Below are positions 901 to 37,787 of a stretch of 64,000 nt of DNA, piece after piece. The notes under the pieces are model-generated. The model ran no database searches. It saw only the letters and a list, made by a program, of their open reading frames with translations, and was not told where the DNA came from. The stretch's first letter is position 1, and each line of letters opens with the position of its first letter. Both the position numbers and the translations under genes were made by a program. Source of the DNA: Yponomeuta sedellus (Eukaryota; Arthropoda; Insecta; Lepidoptera; Yponomeutidae); contig OW203722.1 in assembly GCA_934045075.1 (NCBI GenBank), forward strand, positions 6,740,763 through 6,804,762. Reading direction: 5' to 3'.

Positions 901-901
901 A

Positions 902-9541: not shown

Positions 9542-10649
9542 CATTGAATTTGAAGTAAGGATAGAAGATCATTCAATAGCTTTTTTCGGATCCTGGCGCT
9601 GACGTCGCTTGTCGGTAAAATTTGTGACTAACTTATTACATTTTCTGTATAATAACGAAATTGAACCACATTTCCCTAATAGTTTATTTTTTTATAAATT
9701 AATATTAAAAAATCCAATGATTTAATCAATAAGTTATTAAGATCGAGATAACTTAATTATTTTAATCAATCTTTCGTAACCCAGTCAGCTACCGTACTTG
9801 ATAATGAGTTGCTTGTGCCCAATCTCACTAGTCTATGCTACTCCACGTTAGATGGCGCTAATAGAAATAATTGGGCCACACAGAAGGGACTGGGGCGCGC
9901 GCAGACATCACTGATTAAACCGTTCGCAGATAGTAAATGTCACGGATATCCGTGGTAAATGTTTAGAAATTTTCGAAAACGATACACGAAAATATACCTC
10001 ATGGATGGTTCACAGATATTTCACATTTTGCAAAATAGGTGGAAGAAATATTTTTTTTTAAGGTTTCTAGTACAAGATCGATTAAGCTATGTTGGTACAT
10101 CTTTTAATTTTTATGTGATTTATTGACAAATAAGTTGCTTAAAACTTTACTAAAAACGGTACCGATTATTATGGCAGCTTCCTATAAGAACTCGTGGTCG
10201 CAGTTTGTACCCCCTAGTTTTTGAATTCGCAACTTGCTGTTGAGGAACAGTCGACAGCATATCACCTTTACATTTTATAATGTCTTGGAATAATTAACTA
10301 CATAAACAATAATTAACTATAGCCCTTTAAGTATAACTTCCAACTAAAACATAGATTTTAGGGTTCCGTACCAGAGGGTAAAAACGGGACCCAATTGCTA
10401 AGATGGTATGTCCGTCTGTCGGTCTGTCCCCAAGCTGAACGTAAACTCTCATGAACCGTGTAGCTACAGTTGATATTTTTAAAGATGATGTACATATTTA
10501 TTTAATGAAAGTCATTTCCATTTTAACCGACTTCAAAAGAGGTTATCACATCGACGCGTATGTTAATTATTTTTCACTATGTTTTCGCATTATCTTCGTC
10601 AAATCTTAACCTATTTCGATATTTTTTTTTGTTCTACTAGGTATAGCGT

Positions 10650-10860
10650 CCCATTCAGAGTGGCCTGTCTTATACCATCATTGGGGGTTAATGCCCATAA
10701 TCCCCACGCTGGGCATGCGGGTTGAGGATCGCAGATTGGTGGCATTGTACTGCAGGGGGCGCTGCTGCCCACCCCCCAGTTTGTGTCCCTTAGTCACCTT
10801 TTACGACACCCGCGGGAAGAATTTGGGTTGGTGCTATTCTTTAAGCCGAAACCACACAGC
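10650..10860. repeat. Dispersed repeat I, copy
   Basis: Landmarks are 'aatccccacgctgggcatgc', 'tactgcagggggcgctgctg', 'ccttttacgacacccgcggg' and 'gccgaaaccacacagcat'. Parts recur at 40910-40985 and 57245-57360. It looks like a LINE or SINE 3' region and has no coding content. Confidence 0.6.
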
Positions 10861-11063
10861 ATGATTGTCTAAAACTTTAAATTCGATTTATTGGTATAGC
10901 CGAAATCAAAAGTTGTGAACCGGAACTTATTTACGTGCAAATTTACATTTTGCGAATTTTCAAGACCATATTTCTTTGAAACTGATACTCTTACTTCTAT
11001 TGAAATACCCATAAGACAAACATTGTAGAGAATAAAATTTCACATTATACCTAAAAACTATTT

Positions 11064-12456
11064 TTATTTAATCTTTTCAGAGCACTCTCCACCAGCCTCT
11101 ATACCACGTATCATGCGTCTGAACCAATTTTCAAAACATTTATTCCAGTCCTCCGCAGACACCTCTTCCACGGCCTTCTCAAACGCTGCTAGCGCGTCTT
11201 CCGATGAAAACTGTATCCCTTTGAGCAGATTTTTTATTTTAGGCAGTAAAAAGAAGTCACACGGAACCTAATCAGGACTGTAAGGAGGGTCTCCTAAGAC
11301 TCTGATCTGTGTGGAGTCCAGGAAGTCCCTCGTTTTGATCGCAGTGTGCGCGGGCGCGTTGTCGTGGTGAAGAAGGACCCCGCGGAGCCCGTTGTTCAAT
11401 CGCTTGTTGCTCAATTCAGAAAAAAACTTCTGGCAGGCATTTTGTGTTATACCATTCAGCGTTTAATGACTTTGTTTAATTTCAAAGTTACGTACATTTG
11501 AGAATTTGTAGTTGCAATACCACTCGCTAACGGTGAAGGAAAACATCGTGAGGAAACCCGCGGCCTGGTTGGCTCCGCACGTATTGACTAGTCTTTCCTG
11601 TGGGCTAGGCCGACTAAGCTGTCAGGATGGTATAGGTGCTGGGCAAGCCTACACCATCTATAAAACCATGTCCCAGGCACTACAGCGTCGGAGTGGGCCC
11701 TTCACCCATCTAGTGTGAGTGAAGATACCACTGGACGCTGTATAAATCATCTCATTAAGTAGATGCAAAAAGGCCAATATTATTATTATTCAGCGTTGAT
11801 GCTGCTTTGGTCTCAAAGTGGAATTGAAGTTAGGTACCCCGTCAAAGTGAAGAAACCATAAAAAAAATCCTGCGCTCCTCGATCGCTTCACTTTCGTAGG
11901 CGTTGGTTCATTTTGAAACAACCAAACTGTCGACTGATGCTTTGTTTCTGGATCATATTGAGAAATCCAGGATTCGTCACCTGTCACAGTGTTGTAAACG
12001 CGCCGTGACGAGCCAGCATCAAATTTTTGTAACAAATCACGGCACCAATCCACACGGGCCTGCTTCTGAGCTTCGGTGAGGTTGTGCGGCACCCAGCGGA
12101 AAATTATTCTCCTTACGGGAAGGTGCTTGTGCAAAATCTTGTGAACACTTCCTGAACCAATCTGCAGTGTATGCTGAATCTTTTCGTACTTAATTCGTCT
12201 GTTTTCTTGAATTATTTTTTTTACTGCCAGCAAACTTTCTTCGGTGACAGCCGTGATAGGACGACCACTCCTTTGTTCATTCCCTCAAAGTAAGATGACC
12301 GCGTTTGAACTCGCTATACCAGCGGTAGATGGTTGTTTTTGAAGGTCCTTCATTCATAAAAGCAATTCGAAGTCGATCACATGACTCATCAGGTCTTAAG
12401 CCACATTTGAAATAGTATAAAATCATAGCACGAAAATGTTCTGAATGCCGATCCAT
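11064..12456 (-). pseudogene. Mariner transposase, broken (left copy)
   Basis: Reads from an ATG at 12456 on the minus strand (a longer open frame starts at a non-ATG codon, 12468). The N-terminal helix-turn-helix part is followed by a frameshift near 12290 before the R-S-G-R-P-I-T linker, then the catalytic domain. The first Asp is in TGDESW, the second in HHDNAPAHTA, the third in PCDFF, with 34 residues between the last two: a D,D34D mariner. Breaks: the early frameshift; a frameshift at a T-run with stops just before the SINE; the SINE insertion; and a stop codon in place of the residue after SPD in the third catalytic motif. The left copy also lacks 3 bp near 11202 that the right copy keeps. 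Clearly dead, and the same breaks occur in both copies. Confidence 0.85.
11464..11787 (+). mobile_element. SINE D, 5'-truncated, inserted in mariner (left copy)
   Basis: A 324-bp insertion flanked by the 10-bp duplication ATTCAGCGTT (11454-11463 and 11788-11797). It lacks the tRNA-like head but otherwise matches the full copy at 21177-21570 and ends in an (aat)n-type tail. It interrupts the mariner transposase frame exactly at the duplicated site. Confidence 0.85.
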
Positions 12457-13250
12457 TTTGGCTCTCAAAAAATGCGGAGGGAAATTTGAAAATCGAACAG
12501 TAGTATTTTTACTTTTAAATAAATGACGTTTTCATAACAACTACTAGTGGCCAATGTCTTATACATAAAAACTATTTTTCAAAACTTTCTGAGTGGCCTG
12601 GTATAGACAACTCAACTTTCAAATTCAGTTATTATCTAAGACTATATTTGCATGAATTCAAAATTATACTTTTTTCATTTTGCGGATTTTCCGTTAGTAT
12701 GAGGTGTGAAGTCTACATTTAAGGCAATTTGAGGGTAAGGAACATTTCAATGCAACATTTTAAGGACGCGGTCAGAAAACTAGAGATTCGAAGTAGGTAT
12801 TGTGAATGAAAAACTATTTTACGCAAGTGATCTTTAATTAGTACCTTAGGAAGCAATAGAAACATTAAAAATGAATGTGACATTGATAAAATATATAGAT
12901 ATGCAGCACAGCATTCAAGTTCCCATTTTCTTAGTTGTTGAAATTACCCGGTTCACAACTTTTGATTTCAGATATACCACTAAGCCTAATTACTTGTAAA
13001 TTTATATATTACTTGTTACTATAAATTCTTCTTAGTCTGTACCTACGCTCTACTGAGCAGTCGTGGTCTTCAAAAAAAGGCTTCATTATAGGCTAATGTT
13101 GCGTGTCTCACGATGTCTCGCCGACGTTTACAATATTTACAGAATATTTCGTTGTATTCACTTCAAAAATAAATAATTTAATTAATAATAGTACCTACGG
13201 AACCCTTCGTGCGCAAGTCAGACTCGGACTTGGCCAGTTGATTTTTTTAC

Positions 13251-13920
13251 TTACTATGCTTGCTTGCTAGATACCGATTTGGTACCTAATCCATAATTAT
13301 ACAAATTAGACATATTCATGCCTGCTCACACACTTGGTTCATTCATCGCATGGGTGCTATAAAACTATTATAACGAAGAACTAATTATTTTAGATCTTCT
13401 ACAAATGTAGTTTGTTGTAGATTCAACACTAGTAATTTGTATCTTTTTACATTTACATCAGCTCTTCTAAATAGGTAGATCAGATTTCTGTTGGTAGAAA
13501 GTTAAAACAAACGCAATCATTTTTCGTCCAACGAACGATTGCGCTCGGGGTGCCAGGCGACGTTGCCAAGTAGTGCGGGGTGAGTACCTAGGCGACGCGT
13601 CGTTGCCAAGTTGCCCTAGCAACATCTCTGCATCCATCGCCGTGTGTGGGAGCGTGTTTTACTTTTGAGAGTAGGTATGTTCTGCGTAAGATTGTAAACG
13701 TAGGTAGTGGTTATATACTCTGATAGTAAGCACGTGATATGTGAGTAAGCTACCTATGCTCTGGGTATCTGCCTTAGTTAAAATTAATATAGATAGTAAA
13801 TAATTTAGGAGCCCGCGCGACACATTAGCACACTAGCTAAAACGGCGAGGGCTATTGTCTGTCTTTGTGTTGTCTCACCGGCCCGGCACCGGCTCGCGAC
13901 TCCGGGGCCGGTCGGCGCCG
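13251..13920. other. Non-coding part of giant element with a GC-rich patch
   Basis: 13540-13660 has duplicated 'gcgacg.cgttgccaag' phrases and is locally CpG-rich. 13855-13920 is very GC-rich and abuts the Transib end. No gene is seen, but it could hold promoter or subterminal sequence of the outer element (inference). Confidence 0.35.
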
Positions 13921-14338
13921 CACGGTGGCCTGAGAATCACGTTTCAAAGACATATGAACTTGAGTTTTCAAGTGTCACTTTTTTCTCTCGAAATAGGTTT
14001 TATTACTCATTATATCATTACTATACTAAACAATGTGATGAGAGACTATTTAGAGAGCAAACGGATGTGTAAGAATTTTTCGAAGAAATATTTTTATGGA
14101 GCTGACATGAAAAGTGGCTATAGCTCTGGAATCGCAAGTTTGGCCGTAATATCCTTGGAGATGTAAAAAGTGCTATTTATTTGTGATTTTTCGGCATACT
14201 TTTTATAGCAGTGCCCTTTGCGATTTTTTTAAAATTAATAATGTGTATTTTATACTTAAATGACTAGTTAGACCAACTTTAGATATACCCTATACCATAT
14301 GCCCTAGCCTATGAAATTAAAATTAGGCGTGTTATATA

Positions 14339-14387
14339 TAATGTACATATTATCCCTTTATTTTGTAAAGGGATAATATGTACATTA
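14339..14387. repeat. Perfect 22-bp-arm hairpin
   Basis: Arms 14339-14360 and 14366-14387 are exact reverse complements around a 5-base loop. The core is attatcccttta / taaagggataat. It has no T-rich tract or context that would make it a terminator. The mirror copy is at 32939-32987. Confidence 0.95.
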
Positions 14388-14463
14388 GACGACATTCACC
14401 AAAGTAAGAAAGGTTTTAATAAAATACCAATTTTTCAAAATATATTTTTACTAATTGCACATT

Positions 14464-14628
14464 CACTGACCACGAACTGGCAGACGCCAGGTAGGACACC
14501 TACCAGTTCGCTCGACCGATGATCCCAAAAATATCGCTGGTGGCTGGGTGAGGATTGCTGAGGATAGAGTAATGTGGCTTGCCCTGGGAGAGGCCTATAT
14601 GCAGCAGTGGACAAATACAGGCTGATTG
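14464..14628 (+). mobile_element. RTE LINE 3' end inserted in Transib, 10-bp target duplication
   Basis: A 165-bp insertion between two copies of ATTGCACATT (14454-14463 and 14629-14638). The translation of the insert ends in the RTE-type tail (W.RIAEDR..W, then LGEAYMQQW), followed by a short tail in gattg units. It is a classic 5'-truncated retrotransposition product. Confidence 0.8.
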
Positions 14629-15309
14629 ATTGCACATTAAATATAAAGACCGTTTCTTTATCATGAATTCCCAAAAACGTTAATATCACTTTAATAATTC
14701 GTAAAACAAGTCTTATTAATTAAACACATAATATATATGCTCAGTTTTAATTTCATAGACTAGGGTACAGGAATATCTAACTACGCATAATCAGGACACA
14801 AAAGCATTAGAACTACTCATTTTAGTACAAAGTACACATTATAATTATATTTTTAAAAATCGCAATACAGATTTTTCTTCGAAAAATTCTTACGCGTCCG
14901 TTTGCTCTATAAATTGTCTCTCATCACATTGTTTAGTGTAGTAATGAGTAATAAAACCTATTTCGAGAGAAAAAAGTGACACTTGAAAACTCAAGTTCCT
15001 AGAGTCCCGCCGGTGCCGTCACCGGGGGTAGCAAGCAATATTTTTTCAAGTTATTTAAGCGTCTATCTTCATATTTTCACAATTAATATTAACAATAACA
15101 TCATGTATGATGACTAAATCACCAATTAGTTAATAACACCTGAGGTATACTAGGAATTGGAGTTTGATTACCATTAGGGGTATTGTAGTTGCGTATAAAT
15201 GGAAGGTAAAATATTTTATGTGCTCATTGACATTTTGTCCTGCTAAAAAAACATACCCAAATCATAAAGAGAAAAATATGGAATCGCAAGTCTGACAACT
15301 AAACTTGAC

Positions 15310-17332
15310 TTGTTCGTGGTTTTGAAGCAGTGTGGAAAGCTAAGCAACTACTCTACTTTGTTGGAAAAAGTTGTATCGCTATTGAACCTTCATCATCTGT
15401 CCGATGAAGATCTTGATATACTTCGAGAATTCTGTCGAAGATTCAGTCAACAAGTTACCAAGAGATGGAAGACAGCAAATAGAAACAAGGATATTTTCAG
15501 AAAAAAATATGAAAACTGGCTCGTAATGAGTATTGACTGGCCATGTTGTGTTGTTTCACATATTATACCAGATGGAACAGCTTCGGTATGCCAAGAAGGC
15601 ATAAGTTCTTGCACTGAAGTACCATTTGGATCTTTGGGAGCAAAACAAAGGAAAAGGAGGCTACAACATGAAAGTCATGAAGACACCGATGAATCAATCT
15701 GTGTTACAATAGAAAATTTGAAGAAAGAAGGAAACGAATGTTTAGGCAAAGTAATTTAAGAAGAATCCTGAAGAAGCAGTAAAAATCTATAACGATATAG
15801 AAATGAAGAAATTAAAGAAAACTACAGTTACGCCAGAAAAAGCGCTAGGCCTTTTATTTTCTCTGGGATTATCAAAGTGGAAATATATTACACTGAGAGA
15901 GATGACAATGCGTGAGGGCTTAACAGACTTTCACCCATCGTATTACAAGATTCAGCAAGCCAAGTCAAGCTGTTATCCTCCCGATCAGGCTTTCATTATA
16001 AATGACACCATGGCGAAACTAGATCTGCAAGCTCTGTTGAATATAACCATACAACAAATTTTGAAAACCTTACCAGAACTGTCTGCTTACATGGGTAAAA
16101 CACTGGTTTTGTTATCCAAGTGGGGTTTCGACGGTTCATCAAACCAAAGCAGATACAATCAAAGCATTGAAGGAGGTGAAACAGATGAATCTCTGTTTAT
16201 GACAACACTTGTTCCGCTGCAGTTATCTAACGGGACTGAAGTTATATGGAAAAACCCGAAGCCATGCTCAGTTTTCTACTGTAGACCTGTACAGTTTCTT
16301 TTCGCAAAAGAAAGCGAGTCTCTCGTAAAAGAAGAAATGAAGAAAATGGAAGAGGAAATAGCTGCATTGGTGCCCTCAGAATGCAGAAATATAAAAATAA
16401 ATCATGATCTAGTCATGACTATGATCGACGGAAAAGTTTGCAGTTATTTATCCGAAGCTCTTTCCAGTGCAGTTTGCTATTTATGTCTAGCAAAACCGAG
16501 CGAGATGAACAATATTGATGCAGTAATACGAAAAGAAGTAGCCAACAACATGTTAAAATTCGGCTTATCTCCGTTACATGCCCAAATTAACTGCATGGAA
16601 TGTTTGCTACATATAGCATACAGACTGGAGTTGAAGACTTGGGCAGTAAGAGGAGATAAAGATAAGGCTGTCATGCTGACCAAAAAGCAGTTGCTGCAAG
16701 AACGATTCCAACAGAAGCTTGGTCTTCTTGTGGACGTGGTCAAACAGAGCTCTGGAACAACGAACGATGGAAATAACGCACGAAAATTCTTCGATGACCC
16801 AAAACAGACAGCCGAGATAACAGGAGTGGATGAAGAATTGATTAGAAGATTTGCAGTCATACTTCAAGCCATTACATCTGGTGAAGAAATAAACGTCGAC
16901 AAGTACAAAGAATATGGCCGAAGTACTGCAGAAAGGTACCTGGACCAATACTGCTGGTACTATATGCCAGCTACAGTGCACAAGTTGCTAATCCATGGTG
17001 CTGAAATTATAAGGAACTCCTTGGTTCCTACTGGGATCTTATCTGAAGAAGCATCCAAAGCTCGCAACAAAGATTTTCGATGTTAACGAGAATTTCACTC
17101 GCGAAAGAACACCAGGAAGAATTCAAACGAAGATGTCATCAAAAGGATGCTTCTCACTTCTGATCCTTTTATTTCTTCAATGCGACCAGTTATGAGGATA
17201 GCTTTAAAGAAAAAAATGAGTCAAGAAGCAGTGGATCTTTAGGTATTACAACGACATCATATTGAGTTCTGTAACGTCGAAAATATTGAAAGTGACACAG
17301 ATTCCGAGAAAGAAACTGATTTATATGAATAA
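15310..17332 (+). pseudogene. Transib transposase (RAG1-like), broken (left copy)
   Basis: A first open segment (15310-15759, beginning at a non-ATG codon) carries the N-terminal domain. A +1 frameshift near 15755 leads into the catalytic segment from 15803. There, counting from the Met at 15803, the DDE core has D110 in KWGFDGSS and D209 in MTMIDGK, with a zinc-binding-like CYLC at 225-228, matching RAG1 D600 and D708 (established for the Transib/RAG1 family). The block GTTNDGNNARKFF (318-330) matches the RAG1 'SGNYARKL' region. The final catalytic Glu, aligned on the shared N-K, is K419 instead of Glu (the neighbours are E415 and E416). An in-frame TAA at 17084 and a TAG at 17240 interrupt a tail that otherwise stays in frame to 17332. 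Dead in both copies. Confidence 0.88.
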
Positions 17333-18105
17333 TTTATACGATTTTTGTTTGCAATATGTTATTGTAATTCTTTTATTTATATTTTTTATACATTGGTTTC
17401 TTTACTTGTCTTTTATGTACCTATTTTAATGTAAAGGATTCATAGCTAGTATTTTATTCATGTAGTTTTAAAGGCTTATTTTTTATGGTTACATGATTTA
17501 ACATTTTTAAAATGTATGTGTGTTTTAAAATGTAACTTGGACTTATTTCATGTATCTTTGTAAATATTTTATGCTTGTGTTTTTCCTCGTGTACAATAAA
17601 GAATATTCATATCTTATTTGATTTTCATGTGTATAATTTGTTCGCATATGACAATGTTTTAGAACAGTATTTAAGTAGTTATACTGTATGATTCTTTATA
17701 ATTATAAAGAATCCTTAATTAAGGAAGGTACATAATTTGACAAACACAAAATATACGCTTAAATACCTTAAAAAAATATTTTAAATGCATTTAATTTTTT
17801 TTCGACCAAAGTCGCACGAGTGCGCCCATAGTGCAGTATGTCAAAAAATCCATAAAAATGCAGGCAATAATCGTGCTGAAGGAAATAACGGGCAAGTGTG
17901 CGATAATCAAGTTATGGCCAATTTTATAGTAACTTCCATACATTTTTTTTAACCAAGTGGAAAAAAAGTACTTGCACAAAGGTAAACATACTGCACTTCA
18001 AATATGTTGAAAGATTAGCCTTCCTAAGTGGATTCCTGTGAAAAAAAAATAACAATTCAAAATTCGATCTCTAAGTCTATGGGGAGCGATTTTCAGCCCA
18101 CCGTG

Positions 18106-18829
18106 CGGAGGGTGAGACTCGTATTTCGTATCGGCGTCGTAGGTGTAAAAGATATAACAAATATAGTCGACGGCTTGGACGATACCATTGTTATATCTAC
18201 GCGTTTTACTTTACGTGTCGTCGTGTTGAAGTCCGTGTCAGCACTGTACCACTCACCGGGCGTAACCCGGCATCGACACCGGCACAATGGAAAAACGAAA
18301 CCCGGCACCGGTGCCTGATGCCTGTGCAACGGCCATGCCGGTGTGCCGTGCCGGTCCGGGCCGATGAGTCGAAACACGCCCAATGCCGATGCCGGCGTGA
18401 CGACGACGACGACGGCTCCCGGCGCGGCTCGAGCAGCAGGTCGCTAGCTGCTGCACTATAACGTCTAAGGCAGGCGGCTACCTCGTTCTTCATCAAATTT
18501 TAAAGAAAGTCTATGGTGTAATTATCTCAATTTCTGCTCAGCGTAAATCGTTTCGTAATCTTACTTTAAACAATTTAATAACTTTACTACATCGAGGGTA
18601 GCATAAATGAAAAATCAGTAAGTTTTATGGGGAATATAATTACAGGGAAAGTACACATTACCTAAACTTAAAACATAAAGTGTGTTGAACTTATGGGTAG
18701 TATCAATCAGGGAACGTGTCAACCGGATATTCTGAGCTTCACTTACAACAATTAATAAAATAGAAAATCTCATATTCAATAACTTATAAGTTTATAAATA
18801 GCCCATACCATAATATTAACCTCACACCT
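18106..18829. other. GC-rich non-coding block of the giant element
   Basis: 18240-18440 is very GC-rich and full of short palindromic ccggca/tgccgg and cggcaccggtgcc words, with a (gac)n run. Open frames on both strands here (up to 96 codons) are typical of GC-rich sequence and show no domain. 18500-18829 is AT-rich and featureless. Confidence 0.4.
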
Positions 18830-19145
18830 GCATTCCAATGGGGTAGACAGGCACCAAGGACTGCCACTTGCCACGATCCTGACAGATTACCTTCGCTTCA
18901 TCAACATTCATTAGTCGTTACATGCACTCACGTCAGTTCCGGTTACTTTTTATCTTCCATTTGCTAATACATTCCTTATCTGGTCGAAGTATGTGGGACG
19001 TCCCTTACCGGCCCTTCCACCCACATTCGCCATGTATATTTGTTTCATCAATATTTCTTCCTTCATCCTCTCCACATATATCACAGTACAATGAAGGTGT
19101 AGCTGATGCGTGCGTTTGCTTCTATGCAGAGTTAGCTGGCAACGG
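18830..19145 (-). pseudogene. Repeat E, LINE 3' end (left giant copy)
   Basis: The minus strand reads an RT-type C-terminal tail (ERMKEEILMKQIY then GGRAGKGRP.YFDQI) and a stop, then the repeat E 3' UTR ending near 18830. It is identical to 28181-28500 in the right copy. Confidence 0.6.
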
Positions 19146-19630
19146 CGCATATTAAAATCATGGGCCATAATCACAGCAGAAATTGGTAAAAATATCAGCC
19201 AGCTCCCATATGGATGGACAGATATGATTTTTAATGGAATACTAAATTGATTGGAATAGTTTGTAGCAGTACCTACCTACCTCTCGATAGGATACTGGTC
19301 TTAGGCCCTATTTCACAATGTTCAAATAAAGATAAAGATATTTATTGGGTCACAGCCATCGGTATACATGTAAAGTTAGGCTAGTTTACAGGCAAGTTCC
19401 AGATAAGCTATCCGCAACCAGGGCTGCCGTTTATTCTAAATTTAAATATTTTTTTCTATATTGTGTGTGTTCGTTTATGGCTTCAAATTTAGAACAAACA
19501 GCAGCCCTGGTTGCGGATAGCATATCCGGAACTTTATCTGCAGATTGTGAAACAGACCCTTACCCTACCCGAAAATAACTTAAACAAAATCTCGCAGCGT
19601 TGGGAAGTGTTTGCGATGGACTAGTAAAGG

Positions 19631-19839
19631 TTTTTCAATAACATAACATTTACATACAGGCACATACATTGCTTCTGGCCCCACACTAGGATACCCTGTG
19701 TCGTGGGAACCAGAAACAACGACATCACAAACATGTAAACATCCAAGACCTGGGGTTTTTTTTTGTTCCCAGCCGGGATTCGAACCCGGGACCTCCTGCA
19801 TGGCAGGTAGATGCACTACCGTTACGCCACAGAGGTCGT
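19631..19839 (-). mobile_element. SINE B (tRNA-derived), left giant copy
   Basis: Minus-strand head 'gacctctgtggcgtaacggt' with the B box 'gggttcgaatcccggctggg', body as at 7061-7262, and an (ataac)n-type tail on the plus strand. The intact B box and well-preserved tRNA arms suggest this is a younger copy than the one at 7061. Confidence 0.8.
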
Positions 19840-20952
19840 CTAATTATTATTAATAATTGTTTAAACCAGCGTTTCTTACTCTTTTTTGTACAAGCATCTC
19901 TTATGGTTTTTGCCACCAAGCACAATTTTAAGGACCTCCTTAATAATAGAAGCAGCAATATATTTCGAAACATTTATTGTAGTACAGTCAAAAAATATAC
20001 TTTTTTCATAATAAAATAGGTAAATGTGAAGGTTCGTGCTTGTGGGGTAGGCGGCGGCGTGTGTAGCAATTACGAAACTTTTGGTGGCATTTATTTATGA
20101 TTGTTAAATGGTCTATTGATAAGACTTCGGTAGAAGTTCGACCATTTTGTTGCGAAGTCGCCCATAATAATACTGAGGAGAGTGCGAACATGCAAAGTTG
20201 ATGTGCTGTCGACTGCACTGTGCAGGTAGGTCGGTGTGTGTGGTACCCAAATGGACTAAGGTACCTTTGAGGGAGTTGTCTAAGTATTGGCTTGATAAGA
20301 TCACAATCAGCGACCACAGGGCAGGTCTATACACGGAGGATGACGAAGTCTGGGTTACTGTTGCATGTTGAAAGCACTGATATCATTCACTAGAAGTTGT
20401 TGGTGGGTAAAGGTGGGTTACATTTCTTGCTGCTTGCTTTAAAATTCTGTTTTATAGACCCAATGCACTAATTCCGCAATATACTTTTTCCACAGATTTG
20501 AAATGTGTGATTTTTTCACATAGGTATTGTATTTTCTGAATTATCTCTCAAACAAACAATGTTTTTCCTATATTTATCCCATCCGTGGGTTGTCAATTTT
20601 ATGGCAGATTAGATTTTCCTTAAGGACTTACAAGAACACAGAACAATTAAACCATACAAGAACCAAACGTAGGTACTCTGTGTCTAGAATTGAACTGTCA
20701 ATTCTCTGCTCGCTACTGGCTACTAGAGTACACTGCTAAAATGTTTTACGTTTTGCTAGTCACCGCCAGATGTCAATAGTAAACTCGTGAAAACTATTAA
20801 CAATGCCATCTAGCGGTTTTAGACAAAGCGCTCCACACGTATTTTTCGGCTTTGCGCGCATTTTCAGTGGCGGCCTCTGGGCCCGGCGCGGTTTTTTGGG
20901 ATCCGATTTGCTTGTATGGGAATGGGTTTCTATGCTTACTTCAAATTCAATG
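19840..20952. other. Non-coding inner third of the giant element
   Basis: No gene is recognised. Overlapping open frames at 20006-20334 (minus) show no motif. 20763-20816 forms an imperfect hairpin ('ccgccagatgtcaatagt' against 'actattaacaatgccatctagcgg'). The last ~80 bp next to the terminal repeat are GC-rich. An internal palindrome close to the end is a usual place for transposase binding (inference). Confidence 0.4.
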
Positions 20953-20959
20953 CTATTAT
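20953..20959. repeat. Right 7-bp target duplication of left giant element (CTATTAT)
   Basis: Identical to 9535-9541. Confidence 0.85.
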
Positions 20960-21001
20960 CTTAATGCAGCGTTCATATTGTGACACAATGAAGGAGTAAA
21001 T

Positions 21002-21140
21002 TTTTTAGCCACTCGCTAACATCTTGAGGAAACCTGAGTACCTGAGGAGTTCACTTACCTCACCGACGGAAATTGCCTATCCGCGGTAAGCACGCGTGGT
21101 GATTAAGCCCATACGCTCTCTCTGAGAGAAGGTTAGTCCA
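21002..21140 (+). repeat. Repeat C, partial copy
   Basis: 'agccactcgctaacatcttg', 'gaaattgcctatccgcgg', 'gattaagcccatacgctctc' and 'tctgagagaagg' are present in family order. Confidence 0.55.
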
Positions 21141-21176
21141 GACTTATATACAATTGGATGTATATAAACTGCGTTA

Positions 21177-21570: not shown

Positions 21571-21814
21571 TGCGTTATTAAACTGCGTTATTACTATACT
21601 ATGTAGCATTGTTGTATGTTTATTACACTTTATTGCACATAATACAGAATATAGAACCTAAAAAACAGGATCAACTTACATTATGCTTTGTTCATAATTT
21701 TAATTTAACTTTGTGCGGACTTATTTCAAGAGAAATTTCTTCTAGGCAGCCTTGATGTTTAGAATATCAGACAGCGGGAAAAGGTCAAGTGAAGCACAAA
21801 TAAAAAATAATTAC

Positions 21815-25662: not shown

Positions 25663-26366
25663 CATTTTGTCGCCAACTAAGAAGTCATTATTTGTAATTT
25701 CTCCTTTTATTCTTTTTCTTCTATTGTTGGTCGCAATAAACGCATTTTTACTTATACATAAACCGACGACGCGAGCTCCGTCTATACTTACGATAATTTG
25801 TAAGTAAGTTTATCCAGTAGCAAATCAATTAACTGGGGCAATCGATCGGTCCTTTTGCGAGGCTGTAAAGAAACATGACATCTGTGATTTTTATAGCAAA
25901 CGACACTATGGCAAACCAAGGGCGCTACTATTCAACTCCTCCACTGTTTGCACTCATTCGACTTAACCTACTGCAAACTGTCAAGTACATTCATATTTTG
26001 ACACTTCAAAAACGTCTAAATGGATAACTCTATGCAGTAGGCAGTTATAAAATACGAAAGCTGGTTAGCCGAAGTAGTGAAAGGATTGCCAATCAAGCTT
26101 GCCTTATTCTGAATGTCAAAAAAAACATTATTGATCTAAAACCAGATTGACTAACTTGATTTGTTGTCGGAAGGTACCAGGTACCAGGTTACTTACCAAC
26201 CCAAAAACGTACTAATTCAGATGAGCCAATACAAGCATTTTAAGACTTTTTATCATTAATTGTTGGGTGATCCGCTTAATAATACACTTTTGGTGAAATG
26301 TCATTAGCTAGATTGTCTGAAATATCTCCAGACAAGAAGAAGTTTAACTCTTGTGGCACTTTTGTA
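25663..26366. other. Spacer, no feature recognised
   Basis: No gene or known repeat is seen up to the target duplication of the right giant element. Confidence 0.4.
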
Positions 26367-26373
26367 GTGGAAG
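26367..26373. repeat. Left 7-bp target duplication of right giant element (GTGGAAG)
   Basis: Repeated at 37788-37794. It differs from the flank of the left element. Confidence 0.85.
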
Positions 26374-27486
26374 CATTGAATTTGAAGTAAGCATAGAAAC
26401 CCATTCCCATACAAGCAAATCGGATCCCAAAAAACCGCGCCGGGCCCAGAGGCCGCCACTGAAAATGCGCGCAAAGCCGAAAAACACGTGTGGAGCGCTT
26501 TGTCTAAAACCGCTAGATGGCATTGTTAATAGTTTTCACGAGTTTACTATTGACATCTGGCGGTGACTAGCAAAACGTAAAACATTTTAGCAGTGTACTC
26601 TAGTAGCCAGTAGCGAGCAGAGAATTGACAGTTCAATTCTAGACACAGAGTACCTACGTTTGGTTCTTGTATGGTTTAATTGTTCTGTGTTCTTGTAAGT
26701 CCTTAAGGAAAATCTAATCTGCCATAAAATTGACAACCCACGGATGGGATAAATATAGGAAAAACATTGTTTGTTTGAGAGATAATTCAGAAAATACAAT
26801 ACCTATGTGAAAAAATCACACATTTCAAATCTGTGGAAAAAGTATATTGCGGAATTAGTGCATTGGGTCTATAAAACAGAATTTTAAAGCAAGCAGCAAG
26901 AAATGTAACCCACCTTTACCCACCAACAACTTCTAGTGAATGATATCAGTGCTTTCAACATGCAACAGTAACCCAGACTTCGTCATCCTCCGTGTATAGA
27001 CCTGCCCTGTGGTCGCTGATTGTGATCTTATCAAGCCAATACTTAGACAACTCCCTCAAAGGTACCTTAGTCCATTTGGGTACCACACACACCGACCTAC
27101 CTGCACAGTGCAGTCGACAGCACATCAACTTTGCATGTTCGCACTCTCCTCAGTATTATTATGGGCGACTTCGCAACAAAATGGTCGAACTTCTACCGAA
27201 GTCTTATCAATAGACCATTTAACAATCATAAATAAATGCCACCAAAAGTTTCGTAATTGCTACACACGCCGCCGCCTACCCCACAAGCACGAACCTTCAC
27301 ATTTACCTATTTTATTATGAAAAAAGTATATTTTTTGACTGTACTACAATAAATGTTTCGAAATATATTGCTGCTTCTATTATTAAGGAGGTCCTTAAAA
27401 TTGTGCTTGGTGGCAAAAACCATAAGAGATGCTTGTACAAAAAAGAGTAAGAAACGCTGGTTTAAACAATTATTAATAATAATTAG

Positions 27487-27695
27487 ACGACCTCTGTGGC
27501 GTAACGGTAGTGCATCTACCTGCCATGCAGGAGGTCCCGGGTTCGAATCCCGGCTGGGAACAAAAAAAAACCCCAGGTCTTGGATGTTTACATGTTTGTG
27601 ATGTCGTTGTTTCTGGTTCCCACGACACAGGGTATCCTAGTGTGGGGCCAGAAGCAATGTATGTGCCTGTATGTAAATGTTATGTTATTGAAAAA
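27487..27695 (+). mobile_element. SINE B (tRNA-derived), right giant copy
   Basis: Mirror image of 19631-19839: the same head, A and B boxes and (atgtt)n tail. Confidence 0.8.
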
Positions 27696-28180
27696 CCTTT
27701 ACTAGTCCATCGCAAACACTTCCCAACGCTGCGAGATTTTGTTTAAGTTATTTTCGGGTAGGGTAAGGGTCTGTTTCACAATCTGCAGATAAAGTTCCGG
27801 ATATGCTATCCGCAACCAGGGCTGCTGTTTGTTCTAAATTTGAAGCCATAAACGAACACACACAATATAGAAAAAAATATTTAAATTTAGAATAAACGGC
27901 AGCCCTGGTTGCGGATAGCTTATCTGGAACTTGCCTGTAAACTAGCCTAACTTTACATGTATACCGATGGCTGTGACCCAATAAATATCTTTATCTTTAT
28001 TTGAACATTGTGAAATAGGGCCTAAGACCAGTATCCTATCGAGAGGTAGGTAGGTACTGCTACAAACTATTCCAATCAATTTAGTATTCCATTAAAAATC
28101 ATATCTGTCCATCCATATGGGAGCTGGCTGATATTTTTACCAATTTCTGCTGTGATTATGGCCCATGATTTTAATATGCG

Positions 28181-28500
28181 CCGTTGCCAGCTAACTCTGC
28201 ATAGAAGCAAACGCACGCATCAGCTACACCTTCATTGTACTGTGATATATGTGGAGAGGATGAAGGAAGAAATATTGATGAAACAAATATACATGGCGAA
28301 TGTGGGTGGAAGGGCCGGTAAGGGACGTCCCACATACTTCGACCAGATAAGGAATGTATTAGCAAATGGAAGATAAAAAGTAACCGGAACTGACGTGAGT
28401 GCATGTAACGACTAATGAATGTTGATGAAGCGAAGGTAATCTGTCAGGATCGTGGCAAGTGGCAGTCCTTGGTGCCTGTCTACCCCATTGGAATGCAGGT
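28181..28500 (+). pseudogene. Repeat E, LINE 3' end (right giant copy)
   Basis: Plus-strand C-terminal RT tail (ERMKEEILMKQIY, GGRAGKGRP) with a stop near 28376, followed by the non-coding tail with 'gatgaagcgaaggtaatctg' and 'tggcagtccttggtgcctg'. Mirror of 18830-19145. Confidence 0.6.
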
Positions 28501-29993
28501 GTGAGGTTAATATTATGGTATGGGCTATTTATAAACTTATAAGTTATTGAATATGAGATTTTCTATTTTATTAATTGTTGTAAGTGAAGCTCAGAATATC
28601 CGGTTGACACGTTCCCTGATTGATACTACCCATAAGTTCAACACACTTTATGTTTTAAGTTTAGGTAATGTGTACTTTCCCTGTAATTATATTCCCCATA
28701 AAACTTACTGATTTTTCATTTATGCTACCCTCGATGTAGTAAAGTTATTAAATTGTTTAAAGTAAGATTACGAAACGATTTACGCTGAGCAGAAATTGAG
28801 ATAATTACACCATAGACTTTCTTTAAAATTTGATGAAGAACGAGGTAGCCGCCTGCCTTAGACGTTATAGTGCAGCAGCTAGCGACCTGCTGCTCGAGCC
28901 GCGCCGGGAGCCGTCGTCGTCGTCGTCACGCCGGCATCGGCATTGGGCGTGTTTCGACTCATCGGCCCGGACCGGCACGGCACACCGGCATGGCCGTTGC
29001 ACAGGCATCAGGCACCGGTGCCGGGTTTCGTTTTTCCATTGTGCCGGTGTCGATGCCGGGTTACGCCCGGTGAGTGGTACAGTGCTGACACGGACTTCAA
29101 CACGACGACACGTAAAGTAAAACGCGTAGATATAACAATGGTATCGTCCAAGCCGTCGACTATATTTGTTATATCTTTTACACCTACGACGCCGATACGA
29201 AATACGAGTCTCACCCTCCGCACGGTGGGCTGAAAATCGCTCCCCATAGACTTAGAGATCGAATTTTGAATTGTTATTTTTTTTTCACAGGAATCCACTT
29301 AGGAAGGCTAATCTTTCAACATATTTGAAGTGCAGTATGTTTACCTTTGTGCAAGTACTTTTTTTCCACTTGGTTAAAAAAAATGTATGGAAGTTACTAT
29401 AAAATTGGCCATAACTTGATTATCGCACACTTGCCCGTTATTTCCTTCAGCACGATTATTGCCTGCATTTTTATGGATTTTTTGACATACTGCACTATGG
29501 GCGCACTCGTGCGACTTTGGTCGAAAAAAAATTAAATGCATTTAAAATATTTTTTTAAGGTATTTAAGCGTATATTTTGTGTTTGTCAAATTATGTACCT
29601 TCCTTAATTAAGGATTCTTTATAATTATAAAGAATCATACAGTATAACTACTTAAATACTGTTCTAAAACATTGTCATATGCGAACAAATTATACACATG
29701 AAAATCAAATAAGATATGAATATTCTTTATTGTACACGAGGAAAAACACAAGCATAAAATATTTACAAAGATACATGAAATAAGTCCAAGTTACATTTTA
29801 AAACACACATACATTTTAAAAATGTTAAATCATGTAACCATAAAAAATAAGCCTTTAAAACTACATGAATAAAATACTAGCTATGAATCCTTTACATTAA
29901 AATAGGTACATAAAAGACAAGTAAAGAAACCAATGTATAAAAAATATAAATAAAAGAATTACAATAACATATTGCAAACAAAAATCGTATAAA

Positions 29994-32016
29994 TTATTCA
30001 TATAAATCAGTTTCTTTCTCGGAATCTGTGTCACTTTCAATATTTTCGACGTTACAGAACTCAATATGATGTCGTTGTAATACCTAAAGATCCACTGCTT
30101 CTTGACTCATTTTTTTCTTTAAAGCTATCCTCATAACTGGTCGCATTGAAGAAATAAAAGGATCAGAAGTGAGAAGCATCCTTTTGATGACATCTTCGTT
30201 TGAATTCTTCCTGGTGTTCTTTCGCGAGTGAAATTCTCGTTAACATCGAAAATCTTTGTTGCGAGCTTTGGATGCTTCTTCAGATAAGATCCCAGTAGGA
30301 ACCAAGGAGTTCCTTATAATTTCAGCACCATGGATTAGCAACTTGTGCACTGTAGCTGGCATATAGTACCAGCAGTATTGGTCCAGGTACCTTTCTGCAG
30401 TACTTCGGCCATATTCTTTGTACTTGTCGACGTTTATTTCTTCACCAGATGTAATGGCTTGAAGTATGACTGCAAATCTTCTAATCAATTCTTCATCCAC
30501 TCCTGTTATCTCGGCTGTCTGTTTTGGGTCATCGAAGAATTTTCGTGCGTTATTTCCATCGTTCGTTGTTCCAGAGCTCTGTTTGACCACGTCCACAAGA
30601 AGACCAAGCTTCTGTTGGAATCGTTCTTGCAGCAACTGCTTTTTGGTCAGCATGACAGCCTTATCTTTATCTCCTCTTACTGCCCAAGTCTTCAACTCCA
30701 GTCTGTATGCTATATGTAGCAAACATTCCATGCAGTTAATTTGGGCATGTAACGGAGATAAGCCGAATTTTAACATGTTGTTGGCTACTTCTTTTCGTAT
30801 TACTGCATCAATATTGTTCATCTCGCTCGGTTTTGCTAGACATAAATAGCAAACTGCACTGGAAAGAGCTTCGGATAAATAACTGCAAACTTTTCCGTCG
30901 ATCATAGTCATGACTAGATCATGATTTATTTTTATATTTCTGCATTCTGAGGGCACCAATGCAGCTATTTCCTCTTCCATTTTCTTCATTTCTTCTTTTA
31001 CGAGAGACTCGCTTTCTTTTGCGAAAAGAAACTGTACAGGTCTACAGTAGAAAACTGAGCATGGCTTCGGGTTTTTCCATATAACTTCAGTCCCGTTAGA
31101 TAACTGCAGCGGAACAAGTGTTGTCATAAACAGAGATTCATCTGTTTCACCTCCTTCAATGCTTTGATTGTATCTGCTTTGGTTTGATGAACCGTCGAAA
31201 CCCCACTTGGATAACAAAACCAGTGTTTTACCCATGTAAGCAGACAGTTCTGGTAAGGTTTTCAAAATTTGTTGTATGGTTATATTCAACAGAGCTTGCA
31301 GATCTAGTTTCGCCATGGTGTCATTTATAATGAAAGCCTGATCGGGAGGATAACAGCTTGACTTGGCTTGCTGAATCTTGTAATACGATGGGTGAAAGTC
31401 TGTTAAGCCCTCACGCATTGTCATCTCTCTCAGTGTAATATATTTCCACTTTGATAATCCCAGAGAAAATAAAAGGCCTAGCGCTTTTTCTGGCGTAACT
31501 GTAGTTTTCTTTAATTTCTTCATTTCTATATCGTTATAGATTTTTACTGCTTCTTCAGGATTCTTCTTAAATTACTTTGCCTAAACATTCGTTTCCTTCT
31601 TTCTTCAAATTTTCTATTGTAACACAGATTGATTCATCGGTGTCTTCATGACTTTCATGTTGTAGCCTCCTTTTCCTTTGTTTTGCTCCCAAAGATCCAA
31701 ATGGTACTTCAGTGCAAGAACTTATGCCTTCTTGGCATACCGAAGCTGTTCCATCTGGTATAATATGTGAAACAACACAACATGGCCAGTCAATACTCAT
31801 TACGAGCCAGTTTTCATATTTTTTTCTGAAAATATCCTGGTTTCTATTTGCTGTCTTCCATCTCTTGGTAACTTGTTGACTGAATCTTCGACAGAATTCT
31901 CGAAGTATATCAAGATCTTCATCGGACAGATGATGAAGGTTCAATAGCGATACAACTTTTTCCAACAAAGTAGAGTAGTTGCTTAGCTTTCCACACTGCT
32001 TCAAAACCACGAACAA
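29994..32016 (-). pseudogene. Transib transposase (RAG1-like), broken (right copy)
   Basis: Same layout as the left copy: N-terminal segment 31567-32016, frameshift, catalytic segment 30240-31523, then a stop-interrupted tail to 29994. The stops, the frameshift and the Lys in place of the third catalytic Glu are shared. One coding difference was seen: codon 60 of the N-terminal segment is Gln here and Lys in the left copy (position 31839 against 15487). Shared defects mean both copies descend from an already dead Transib. Confidence 0.88.
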
Positions 32017-32697
32017 GTCAAGTTTAGTTGTCAGACTTGCGATTCCATATTTTTCTCTTTATGATTTGGGTATGTTTTTTTAGCAGGACAAAATGTCAAT
32101 GAGCACATAAAATATTTTACCTTCCATTTATACGCAACTACAATACCCCTAATGGTAATCAAACTCCAATTCCTAGTATACCTCAGGTGTTATTAACTAA
32201 TTGGTGATTTAGTCATCATACATGATGTTATTGTTAATATTAATTGTGAAAATATGAAGATAGACGCTTAAATAACTTGAAAAAATATTGCTTGCTACCC
32301 CCGGTGACGGCACCGGCGGGACTCTAGGAACTTGAGTTTTCAAGTGTCACTTTTTTCTCTCGAAATAGGTTTTATTACTCATTACTACACTAAACAATGT
32401 GATGAGAGACAATTTATAGAGCAAACGGACGCGTAAGAATTTTTCGAAGAAAAATCTGTATTGCGATTTTTAAAAATATAATTATAATGTGTACTTTGTA
32501 CTAAAATGAGTAGTTCTAATGCTTTTGTGTCCTGATTATGCGTAGTTAGATATTCCTGTACCCTAGTCTATGAAATTAAAACTGAGCATATATATTATGT
32601 GTTTAATTAATAAGACTTGTTTTACGAATTATTAAAGTGATATTAACGTTTTTGGGAATTCATGATAAAGAAACGGTCTTTATATTTAATGTGCAAT

Positions 32698-32862
32698 CAA
32701 TCAGCCTGTATTTGTCCACTGCTGCATATAGGCCTCTCCCAGGGCAAGCCACATTACTCTATCCTCAGCAATCCTCACCCAGCCACCAGCGATATTTTTG
32801 GGATCATCGGTCGAGCGAACTGGTAGGTGTCCTACCTGGCGTCTGCCAGTTCGTGGTCAGTG
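32698..32862 (-). mobile_element. RTE LINE 3' end in Transib (right copy)
   Basis: Mirror of 14464-14628, with the same 10-bp duplication on each side. Confidence 0.8.
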
Positions 32863-34869
32863 AATGTGCAATTAGTAAAAATATATTTTGAAAAATTGGT
32901 ATTTTATTAAAACCTTTCTTACTTTGGTGAATGTCGTCTAATGTACATATTATCCCTTTACAAAATAAAGGGATAATATGTACATTATATATAACACGCC
33001 TAATTTTAATTTCATAGGCTAGGGCATATGGTATAGGGTATATCTAAAGTTGGTCTAACTAGTCATTTAAGTATAAAATACACATTATTAATTTTAAAAA
33101 AATCGCAAAGGGCACTGCTATAAAAAGTATGCCGAAAAATCACAAATAAATAGCACTTTTTACATCTCCAAGGATATTACGGCCAAACTTGCGATTCCAG
33201 AGCTATAGCCACTTTTCATGTCAGCTCCATAAAAATATTTCTTCGAAAAATTCTTACACATCCGTTTGCTCTCTAAATAGTCTCTCATCACATTGTTTAG
33301 TATAGTAATGATATAATGAGTAATAAAACCTATTTCGAGAGAAAAAAGTGACACTTGAAAACTCAAGTTCATATGTCTTTGAAACGTGATTCTCAGGCCA
33401 CCGTGCGGCGCCGACCGGCCCCGGAGTCGCGAGCCGGTGCCGGGCCGGTGAGACAACACAAAGACAGACAATAGCCCTCGCCGTTTTAGCTAGTGTGCTA
33501 ATGTGTCGCGCGGGCTCCTAGATTATTTACTATCTATATTAATTTTAACTAAGGCAGATACCCAGAGCATAGGTAGCTTACTCACATATCACGTGCTTAC
33601 TATCAGAGTATATAACCACTACCTACGTTTACAATCTTACGCAGAACATACCTACTCTCAAAAGTAAAACACGCTCCCACACACGGCGATGGATGCAGAG
33701 ATGTTGCTAGGGCAACTTGGCAACGACGCGTCGCCTAGGTACTCACCCCGCACTACTTGGCAACGTCGCCTGGCACCCCGAGCGCAATCGTTCGTTGGAC
33801 GAAAAATGATTGCGTTTGTTTTAACTTTCTACCAACAGAAATCTGATCTACCTATTTAGAAGAGCTGATGTAAATGTAAAAAGATACAAATTACTAGTGT
33901 TGAATCTACAACAAACTACATTTGTAGAAGATCTAAAATAATTAGTTCTTCGTTATAATAGTTTTATAGCACCCATGCGATGAATGAACCAAGTGTGTGA
34001 GCAGGCATGAATATGTCTAATTTGTATAATTATGGATTAGGTACCAAATCGGTATCTAGCAAGCAAGCATAGTAAGTAAAAAAATCAACTGGCCAAGTCC
34101 GAGTCTGACTTGCGCACGAAGGGTTCCGTAGGTACTATTATTAATTAAATTATTTATTTTTGAAGTGAATACAACGAAATATTCTGTAAATATTGTAAAC
34201 GTCGGCGAGACATCGTGAGACACGCAACATTAGCCTATAATGAAGCCTTTTTTTGAAGACCACGACTGCTCAGTAGAGCGTAGGTACAGACTAAGAAGAA
34301 TTTATAGTAACAAGTAATATATAAATTTACAAGTAATTAGGCTTAGTGGTATATCTGAAATCAAAAGTTGTGAACCGGGTAATTTCAACAACTAAGAAAA
34401 TGGGAACTTGAATGCTGTGCTGCATATCTATATATTTTATCAATGTCACATTCATTTTTAATGTTTCTATTGCTTCCTAAGGTACTAATTAAAGATCACT
34501 TGCGTAAAATAGTTTTTCATTCACAATACCTACTTCGAATCTCTAGTTTTCTGACCGCGTCCTTAAAATGTTGCATTGAAATGTTCCTTACCCTCAAATT
34601 GCCTTAAATGTAGACTTCACACCTCATACTAACGGAAAATCCGCAAAATGAAAAAAGTATAATTTTGAATTCATGCAAATATAGTCTTAGATAATAACTG
34701 AATTTGAAAGTTGAGTTGTCTATACCAGGCCACTCAGAAAGTTTTGAAAAATAGTTTTTATGTATAAGACATTGGCCACTAGTAGTTGTTATGAAAACGT
34801 CATTTATTTAAAAGTAAAAATACTACTGTTCGATTTTCAAATTTCCCTCCGCATTTTTTGAGAGCCAAA

Positions 34870-36265
34870 ATGGATCGGCATTCAGAACATTTTCGTGCTA
34901 TGATTTTATACTATTTCAAATGTGGCTTAAGACCTGATGAGTCATGTGATCGACTTCGAATTGCTTTTATGAATGAAGGACCTTCAAAAACAACCATCTA
35001 CCGCTGGTATAGCGAGTTCAAACGCGGTCATCTTACTTTGAGGGAATGAACAAAGGAGTGGTCGTCCTATCACGGCTGTCACCGAAGAAAGTTTGCTGGC
35101 AGTAAAAAAAATAATTCAAGAAAACAGACGAATTAAGTACGAAAAGATTCAGCATACACTGCAGATTGGTTCAGGAAGTGTTCACAAGATTTTGCACAAG
35201 CACCTTCCCGTAAGGAGAATAATTTTCCGCTGGGTGCCGCACAACCTCACCGAAGCTCAGAAGCAGGCCCGTGTGGATTGGTGCCGTGATTTGTTACAAA
35301 AATTTGATGCTGGCTCGTCACGGCGCGTTTACAACACTGTGACAGGTGACGAATCCTGGATTTCTCAATATGATCCAGAAACAAAGCATCAGTCGACAGT
35401 TTGGTTGTTTCAAAATGAACCAACGCCTACGAAAGTGAAGCGATCGAGGAGCGCAGGATTTTTTTTATGGTTTCTTCACTTTGACGGGGTACCTAACTTC
35501 AATTCCACTTTGAGACCAAAGCAGCATCAACGCTGAATAATAATAATATTGGCCTTTTTGCATCTACTTAATGAGATGATTTATACAGCGTCCAGTGGTA
35601 TCTTCACTCACACTAGATGGGTGAAGGGCCCACTCCGACGCTGTAGTGCCTGGGACATGGTTTTATAGATGGTGTAGGCTTGCCCAGCACCTATACCATC
35701 CTGACAGCTTAGTCGGCCTAGCCCACAGGAAAGACTAGTCAATACGTGCGGAGCCAACCAGGCCGCGGGTTTCCTCACGATGTTTTCCTTCACCGTTAGC
35801 GAGTGGTATTGCAACTACAAATTCTCAAATGTACGTAACTTTGAAATTAAACAAAGTCATTAAACGCTGAATGGTATAACACAAAATGCCTGCCAGAAGT
35901 TTTTTTCTGAATTGAGCAACAAGCGATTGAACAACGGGCTCCGCGGGGTCCTTCTTCACCACGACAACGCGCCCGCGCACACTGCGATCAAAACGAGGGA
36001 CTTCCTGGACTCCACACAGATCAGAGTCTTAGGAGACCCTCCTTACAGTCCTGATTAGGTTCCGTGTGACTTCTTTTTACTGCCTAAAATAAAAAATCTG
36101 CTCAAAGGGATACAGTTTTCATCGCCGGAAGACGCGCTAGCAGCGTTTGAGAAGGCCGTGGAAGAGGTGTCTGCGGAGGACTGGAATAAATGTTTTGAAA
36201 ATTGGTTCAGACGCATGATACGTGGTATAGAGGCTGGTGGAGAGTGCTCTGAAAAGATTAAATAA
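34870..36265 (+). pseudogene. Mariner transposase, broken (right copy)
   Basis: ATG at 34870; helix-turn-helix segment to about 35048; frameshift; catalytic segment (TGDESW near 35345) to 35528; SINE insertion; remainder from about 35873 with HHDNAPAHTA and a stop inside the SPD.VPCDFF motif (near 36056); end at 36265. The D,D34D spacing is preserved. It keeps the 3 bp missing from the left copy, so it is slightly closer to the ancestral state. Confidence 0.85.
35539..35862 (-). mobile_element. SINE D, 5'-truncated, in mariner (right copy)
   Basis: 324 bp between two copies of AACGCTGAAT (35529-35538 and 35863-35872). Mirror of 11464-11787. Confidence 0.85.
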
Positions 36266-37787
36266 AAATAGTTTTTAGGTATAATGTGAAATTTTATTCT
36301 CTACAATGTTTGTCTTATGGGTATTTCAATAGAAGTAAGAGTATCAGTTTCAAAGAAATATGGTCTTGAAAATTCGCAAAATGTAAATTTGCACGTAAAT
36401 AAGTTCCGGTTCACAACTTTTGATTTCGGCTATACCAATAAATCGAATTTAAAGTTTTAGACAATCATGCTGTGTGGTTTCGGCTTAAAGAATAGCACCA
36501 ACCCAAATTCTTCCCGCGGGTGTCGTAAAAGGTGACTAAGGGACACAAACTGGGGGGTGGGCAGCAGCGCCCCCTGCAGTACAATGCCACCAATCTGCGA
36601 TCCTCAACCCGCATGCCCAGCGTGGGGATTATGGGCATTAACCCCCAATGATGGTATAAGACAGGCCACTCTGAATGGGACGCTATACCTAGTAGAACAA
36701 AAAAAAATATCGAAATAGGTTAAGATTTGACGAAGATAATGCGAAAACATAGTGAAAAATAATTAACATACGCGTCGATGTGATAACCTCTTTTGAAGTC
36801 GGTTAAAATGGAAGTGACTTTCATTAAATAAATATGTACATCATCTTTAAAAATATCAACTGTAGCTACACGGTTCATGAGAGTTTACGTTCAGCTTGGG
36901 GACAGACCGACAGACGGACATACCATCTTAGCAATTGGGTCCCGTTTTTACCCTCTGGTACGGAACCCTAAAATCTATGTTTTAGTTGGAAGTTATACTT
37001 AAAGGGCTATAGTTAATTATTGTTTATGTAGTTAATTATTCCAAGACATTATAAAATGTAAAGGTGATATGCTGTCGACTGTTCCTCAACAGCAAGTTGC
37101 GAATTCAAAAACTAGGGGGTACAAACTGCGACCACGAGTTCTTATAGGAAGCTGCCATAATAATCGGTACCGTTTTTAGTAAAGTTTTAAGCAACTTATT
37201 TGTCAATAAATCACATAAAAATTAAAAGATGTACCAACATAGCTTAATCGATCTTGTACTAGAAACCTTAAAAAAAAATATTTCTTCCACCTATTTTGCA
37301 AAATGTGAAATATCTGTGAACCATCCATGAGGTATATTTTCGTGTATCGTTTTCGAAAATTTCTAAACATTTACCACGGATATCCGTGACATTTACTATC
37401 TGCGAACGGTTTAATCAGTGATGTCTGCGCGCGCCCCAGTCCCTTCTGTGTGGCCCAATTATTTCTATTAGCGCCATCTAACGTGGAGTAGCATAGACTA
37501 GTGAGATTGGGCACAAGCAACTCATTATCAAGTACGGTAGCTGACTGGGTTACGAAAGATTGATTAAAATAATTAAGTTATCTCGATCTTAATAACTTAT
37601 TGATTAAATCATTGGATTTTTTAATATTAATTTATAAAAAAATAAACTATTAGGGAAATGTGGTTCAATTTCGTTATTATACAGAAAATGTAATAAGTTA
37701 GTCACAAATTTTACCGACAAGCGACGTCAGCGCCAGGATCCGAAAAAAGCTATTGAATGATCTTCTATCCTTACTTCAAATTCAATG

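Follow-up and report, generated by a model that had tools for sequence, protein, structure and literature searches.

The window, the whole 64,000-nucleotide stretch of Yponomeuta sedellus DNA analysed here, contains two copies of one long element, A and B, which lie 5.4 kb apart and are inverted relative to each other. As the original prediction had it, the same inverted ends bound 9542-20952 and 26374-37787, the two copies are near-identical, and each is enclosed by a different 7-bp target duplication (CTATTAT/CTATTAT around A, GTGGAAG/GTGGAAG around B). The features of the pair are as follows.

9535..9541, no strand: left target duplication of copy A, 7 bp, CTATTAT
9542..20952, + strand: copy A, an 11,411-bp element assigned to the P superfamily as a non-autonomous member, deleted form of a ~12.65-kb family
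9542..9559, + strand: left end of copy A, 18-bp terminal inverted repeat
10655..10656, no strand: junction of a private ~1.17-kb deletion in copy A (identical junction in copy B at 36673/36674)
11064..12531, - strand: broken mariner passenger with a Mos1-type HTH and a DDE remnant
15268..17086, + strand: passenger with a broken Transib transposase split over two frames, of which the second ends just past the residues aligned to 426 of PDB 6pqn
20935..20952, - strand: right end of copy A, 18-bp terminal inverted repeat
20953..20959, no strand: right target duplication of copy A, 7 bp, CTATTAT
26367..26373, no strand: left target duplication of copy B, 7 bp, GTGGAAG
26374..37787, - strand: copy B, the 11,414-bp sister of copy A, inverted relative to it
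26374..26391, + strand: right end of copy B, 18-bp terminal inverted repeat
30240..31571, - strand: the same Transib fragment in copy B
37770..37787, - strand: left end of copy B, 18-bp terminal inverted repeat
37788..37794, no strand: right target duplication of copy B, 7 bp, GTGGAAG

Aligned end to end over 11.4 kb, A and B are 99.939% identical, their only differences being 4 mismatches and a single 3-bp gap. Both target duplications are perfect at 7 bp and not at 8 bp, and the sequences flanking the two copies are unlike each other. The inverted ends, which begin CATTGAA, are perfect for 18 bp and extend to 25 bp with a single mismatch (base 19); identity stops after ~25 bp, and beyond the inverted repeat the two 400-bp ends have no 10-mers in common. 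The 25-bp end has no matches in viral contigs. The claim of two separate insertions stands, each copy having its own perfect 7-bp duplication; these duplications and the A/B identity of 99.94% likewise support recent movement by cut and paste. Elsewhere in the window, a BEL/Pao retroelement frame of 1661 aa (49614-54599, - strand) matches Pao peptidase and the integrase zinc-binding domain and, weakly, reverse transcriptase, and tandem arrays of a 176-bp repeat lie at the right end (61388-63733).

The 18-bp end occurs 377 times without mismatch (196 + 181) in the 657.5-Mb genome and its reversed control not once, so the shared ends are not due to chance. Among the end matches listed (100 places, contigs C1-C5) there are at least 39 convergent pairs and at least 22 single ends. 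Sizes of the 39 listed pairs range from under 100 bp (4 pairs) through 0.7-2 kb (2), 5.7-7.9 kb (3), 10.4-11.4 kb (4) and 12-13.3 kb (17) to more than 13.3 kb (9), with 26 of them at 12 kb or more. Duplications were scored at both ends for 36 of these pairs: 30 have a perfect 7-bp duplication and one further pair has 8 bp. The other five have no clean duplication; in two of them it carries 1 and 2 mismatches, in two more the flanks do not match, and in the last the flanks are inverted. Pooled, the targets give the palindromic consensus GTANTAC. Further copies and empty sites had been proposed as the things to look for; there are many copies in the genome, their flanks differ, and paralogous empty sites are present in the window itself, where other copies of the repeats into which two elements have inserted keep the uncut target once.

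720..904, - strand: paralogous empty site for the element at G000:C4:20855526, single GTATGGC, joined flanks 90% identical
43521..43696, + strand: paralogous empty site for the element at G000:C4:17358392, single GTATTAC, joined flanks 94% identical

Twenty long copies diverge by 0.14-0.51% from their majority sequence, with a median pairwise difference of 0.45%. Continued mobility of the elements is plausible. The 19.7-kb copy at G000:C2:1002048-1021699 contains a retroelement with frames of 979 aa and 371 aa, and the 7.6-kb copy at G000:C2:879406-886982, whose flanks do not match, has a retroelement frame of 1002 aa inside. A near-perfect palindrome at G000:C3:11742267-11744258 (L024) holds the right end of the element in both orientations, and its two flanks are inverted repeats with 100% identity for at least 167 bp; it reflects either hairpin-type repair or an error of assembly.

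An element on contig C5 (G000:C5:17050198-17066666) joins the same ends to a P-type transposase. It is 16,469 bp long, its ends are identical to the 18 bp of the family, and GTATAAG lies on both sides. Its 746-aa frame matches the Drosophila P transposase (PDB 6p5a, E 4.9e-37) and scores above the Pfam cut-offs of PF21787, PF21788, PF21789 and PF12017; the catalytic residues of P transposase, D230, D303 and E531 as numbered in the excerpted text of PMC7776569, align to D, D and E in this frame. A 38-aa exon of the element, which has a splice-donor-like end, scores above cut-off for the first half of THAP. In database comparison the closest relative of the protein has 42% identity over 89%. Contig C4 carries a 5.7-kb relative of the C5 element that has lost internal sequence and is otherwise 97-99% alike. 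The genome is rich in P-superfamily elements, and the GTP-binding domain of P transposase has 85 matches in it, none of them in the window. THAP matches number at least 150 (150 of 1769 candidates scored).

Membership of the P superfamily is well supported, because the C5 element pairs the same 18-bp ends with a P-transposase frame and a THAP exon. The view that these ends belong to no named family must therefore be given up: they are P-superfamily ends, identical over 18 bp to those of a partner that encodes a P transposase. We infer from sequence that the 12.65-kb family owes its movement to the C5 enzyme or to one closely related, since the family and the C5 element have the 18-bp ends in common and the family includes one 711-bp and several internally deleted copies. 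What casts doubt on the C5 enzyme itself is that no P domain turned up in the family copies and that the sub-ends are only 75-80% alike (75% across 340 columns on the left, 80% across 300 on the right). That difference of 20-25% is what one would expect if the C5 element were merely a cousin and a closer autonomous partner existed elsewhere; the ends were listed on C1-C5 only, and the 85 domain matches in the genome leave room for such a partner. Against it are the identity of the 18-bp ends to those of the C5 element and the lack of any closer partner among the end matches listed. We regard a closer partner as only slightly short of an even prospect.

Four of the 39 listed end pairs are just 39-51 bp long and resemble excision scars. 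A search pattern that required 17 nt of both ends returned 11 sites against 2 control matches per strand; judged by their flanks, 8 of the 11 are real and 3 (L072, L074, L075) are due to chance. With the 51-bp case added, nine of the 12 examined are real, and perfect duplications surround seven of the nine. Stubs in these nine longer scars measure 17-20 nt on 17 of the 18 ends and 34 nt on the remaining one, and the fillers between them are partly copied from the element end. A second pattern, for which the outer 10 nt of both ends sufficed and the stubs had to lie 0-15 bp apart, returned 731 sites in the genome and none in the control.

Duplications and stubs of the second pattern were evaluated on 50 listed of the 731 sites. 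Perfect 7-bp duplications flank 34 of the 50 and are distinct in all 34 (shuffled right flanks: mean 0.8, maximum 4); five more have one mismatch, five have two and six have three or more, and four of these six sites make up two double scars, tandem duplicates of each other, in which the outer duplication does match. The longer stub is exactly 17 nt in seven of the 50 and exceeds 17 nt in none. A stub of at least 13 nt in 20 of the 50 allows assignment to the exact end of the family; 26 match the end over only 10 nt on both sides, and several scar types do not reduce to a simple joining of the 17-nt end, so some of the 731 may have arisen from sister families. Microhomology modelling accounts for 4 of the 11 types modelled. 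One 21-bp type is listed at 100 or more sites genome-wide (control 0); of 100 such sites, nine of which are also within the 50 listed scars, 83 have perfect duplications, 58 of them distinct (shuffled mean 1.9, maximum 7). Neither the window nor the 283,571 bases of analysed loci longer than 2 kb contain excision scars.

The double scars L091/L092 (G000:C1:14387990, 14390072) each consist of two 21-bp scars 4 bp apart with GTAGTAC outermost, in two copies ~2.1 kb apart. Three copies of one repeat have been struck at the same GTATTAC, leaving a 39-bp scar, a 26-bp scar (L070, L090) and a full element (G000:C4:17358392). The repeat with this GTATTAC (cf. window 43521-43696) is a target hot spot.

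It is very unlikely that the 731 short palindromes are tiny repeats that spread alone or within another repeat instead of being excision scars. Such spreading would account for one 21-bp type at 100 or more sites, some of which have the flank repeat TCTCTGTATTACGTACAGG in common, and for the finding that 83 perfect 21-bp sites hold just 58 different duplications, so that some were possibly copied with a host repeat; the L091/L092 tandem pair is indeed a plain local duplication. The listed flanks mostly differ, however, with distinct duplications in 34/34 and 58/83 cases. In cut-and-paste systems twenty base pairs are insufficient for a transposase to pair two ends. Furthermore, no stub in the unbiased set extends beyond 17 nt, and the junctions resemble those of induced P excision. 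In excerpts of the fly literature the latter leaves 17-nt 3' tails, which are joined by microhomology, by blunt joins or by templated fillers between the old duplications (PMC2895639, PMC7776569). We infer, on the reading of these palindromes as scars, that a P-type transposase cut such ends in the germline many times. If the proportion of 34/50 holds for all 731 sites, roughly 500 natural excision scars with perfect duplications are implied, a count affected by any scars that may have been copied along with a host repeat. Resident elements with perfect 18-bp ends number at most ~188, and the ratio of scars to residents is a rough one in which sister-family residents with other inner ends are uncounted and stubs shorter than 10 nt are missed.

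The interior of the element is dead cargo. The original prediction saw no evident transposase of the element's own, and none that could work is present; there is, however, a 427-443-aa Transib fragment inside (15755-17086), a broken passenger of another superfamily. It resembles HzTransib over 421 residues (PDB 6pqn, E 3.6e-175) and stops directly after the last aligned catalytic block, with the N-terminal part in a different frame. Named relatives of this Transib come from moths and butterflies and also from a firefly and a bee. The frame is gap-free over its full length in 7 of 18 copies, among which 7 silent, 44 replacing and 4 stop changes were counted, with one very common change omitted, against a neutral expectation of 12.4/39.7/2.8. 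The gene is broken, and these changes bear no mark of purifying selection. Apart from the Transib frame and a 164-aa piece of mariner, copy A has no open reading frame above 150 aa. Searches of the window copies for a P-transposase domain gave nothing (Pfam on 10 ORFs; the PF21788 search had no match in the window). A Polinton/Maverick or virus-like element was rejected, as the 10 ORFs scanned are without polymerase, integrase or capsid domains and copy A is without any other ORF above 150 aa.

Transib transposons have 5-bp duplications and CAC-type ends. It is extremely improbable that a Transib identity for the whole element, with its own enzyme as the mover, is correct: the likeness to HzTransib, full-length as it is, belongs to a fragment inside the element, which is split across two frames and changes neutrally, whereas the 7-bp duplications and CATTGAA ends are of another type and the same ends are found on the P-transposase element of C5. 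Transib as the mover was dropped in view of the neutral, broken gene and the 7-bp duplications.

A and B differ from each other by 0.035% and have 14 substitutions exclusive to them among the 20 long copies; the next-best pair shares 6. The ~1.17-kb segment missing from both is present in 17/17 other readable copies, though only partially in the one of them at C4:20632464, the copy at C4:4411774 being unscored because of its wrong orientation in that comparison. Because of the common private deletion and the 14 private substitutions, A and B must have a recent parent in common; the pair are siblings from one deleted element and not two unrelated arrivals. A short local jump is the simplest account, and a later inversion between the copies is argued against by the match between the duplications of each. 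Segmental duplication or an assembly artefact, suggested by two inverted copies 5.4 kb apart with just 4 substitutions and one 3-bp gap, is hardly credible and was dropped, since each copy has its own perfect 7-bp duplication, the outside flanks are unmatched, and A and B, which differ alike from other copies, each have private changes.

We hold with high confidence that A and B are non-autonomous members of the P superfamily moved in trans by a P-type transposase, and that the scars are the excision products of such elements. The transposase would recognise the shared ends and act in trans on non-autonomous copies, and it would cut so that ~17 nt from either end remain in the donor DNA as 3' overhangs. 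Insertion would follow at GTANTAC-like sites with a stagger of 7 bp, rarely 8 bp. The empty donor could be refilled from a sister copy, with the element kept; it could be filled incompletely, giving an internally deleted element; or it could be joined end to end, leaving two stubs between the old 7-bp duplications. A and B are descendants of one deleted parent, most simply via a short local jump.

More tentatively, and with somewhat less than even confidence, we propose that the 12.65-kb cargo-laden P element, larger than is commonly assumed for its transposase-bearing relatives, is the main moving form in this genome, still active and mobilised in trans by a P transposase of lepidopteran type. 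At least several hundred insertions of its own and sister families would have been excised and their breaks closed by end joining, and P-type cutting and the repair of germline breaks outside flies could then be read across the whole genome. P elements founded fly genetics, and their mechanism outside flies has been little tested. One assembly seems to hold both moving elements and hundreds of excision scars dated by context; where the enzyme cuts, which targets it chooses, how insertion compares with loss and by which route natural germline breaks are repaired can be read from it and then checked in other individuals. On the P-type reading of the family, it also documents transposition of 12-19-kb cargo in nature. 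Among the papers listed, titles and the beginnings of abstracts describe neither this family nor a single-genome catalogue of P scars, which does not in itself prove their absence from the literature.

1360/Hoppel makes 7-bp target duplications. It is the third P-superfamily member named in the Galileo paper, and is likened to the present family by description, not by sequence. Galileo, in excerpts of two reports (PMC4168063, PMC3573991), resembles the family in its P-type transposase, its 7-bp (rarely 8-bp) duplications with the consensus GTANTAC / GTATTAC and its many non-autonomous copies. However, its inverted repeats are ~300 bp to 1.2 kb long and those here 18-25 bp, and most pairs listed for the present family reach at least 12 kb. 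Membership of Galileo is unsupported because the long inverted repeats are missing, identity ending after ~25 bp. The Drosophila P transposase consists of THAP and HTH domains and an RNase H domain split by a GTP-binding domain, according to excerpts of PMC7776569. The C5 transposase has this architecture, and the family also shares with P the stub-type junctions and an end starting with CAT, but P is 2.9 kb long with 31-bp inverted repeats and 8-bp duplications. The scars are of the same design as the P excision junctions in the excerpted text of PMC2895639, but lie between 7-bp duplications. The P-MITEs of Anopheles gambiae, as excerpts of PMC1562414 describe them, are likewise non-autonomous, with only the ends of their master and an unrelated interior; those elements are short with an 8-bp duplication, whereas the present ones measure ~12.65 kb and duplicate 7 bp. 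The unusual features here are how large and how dominant the non-autonomous form is, and the record of scars.
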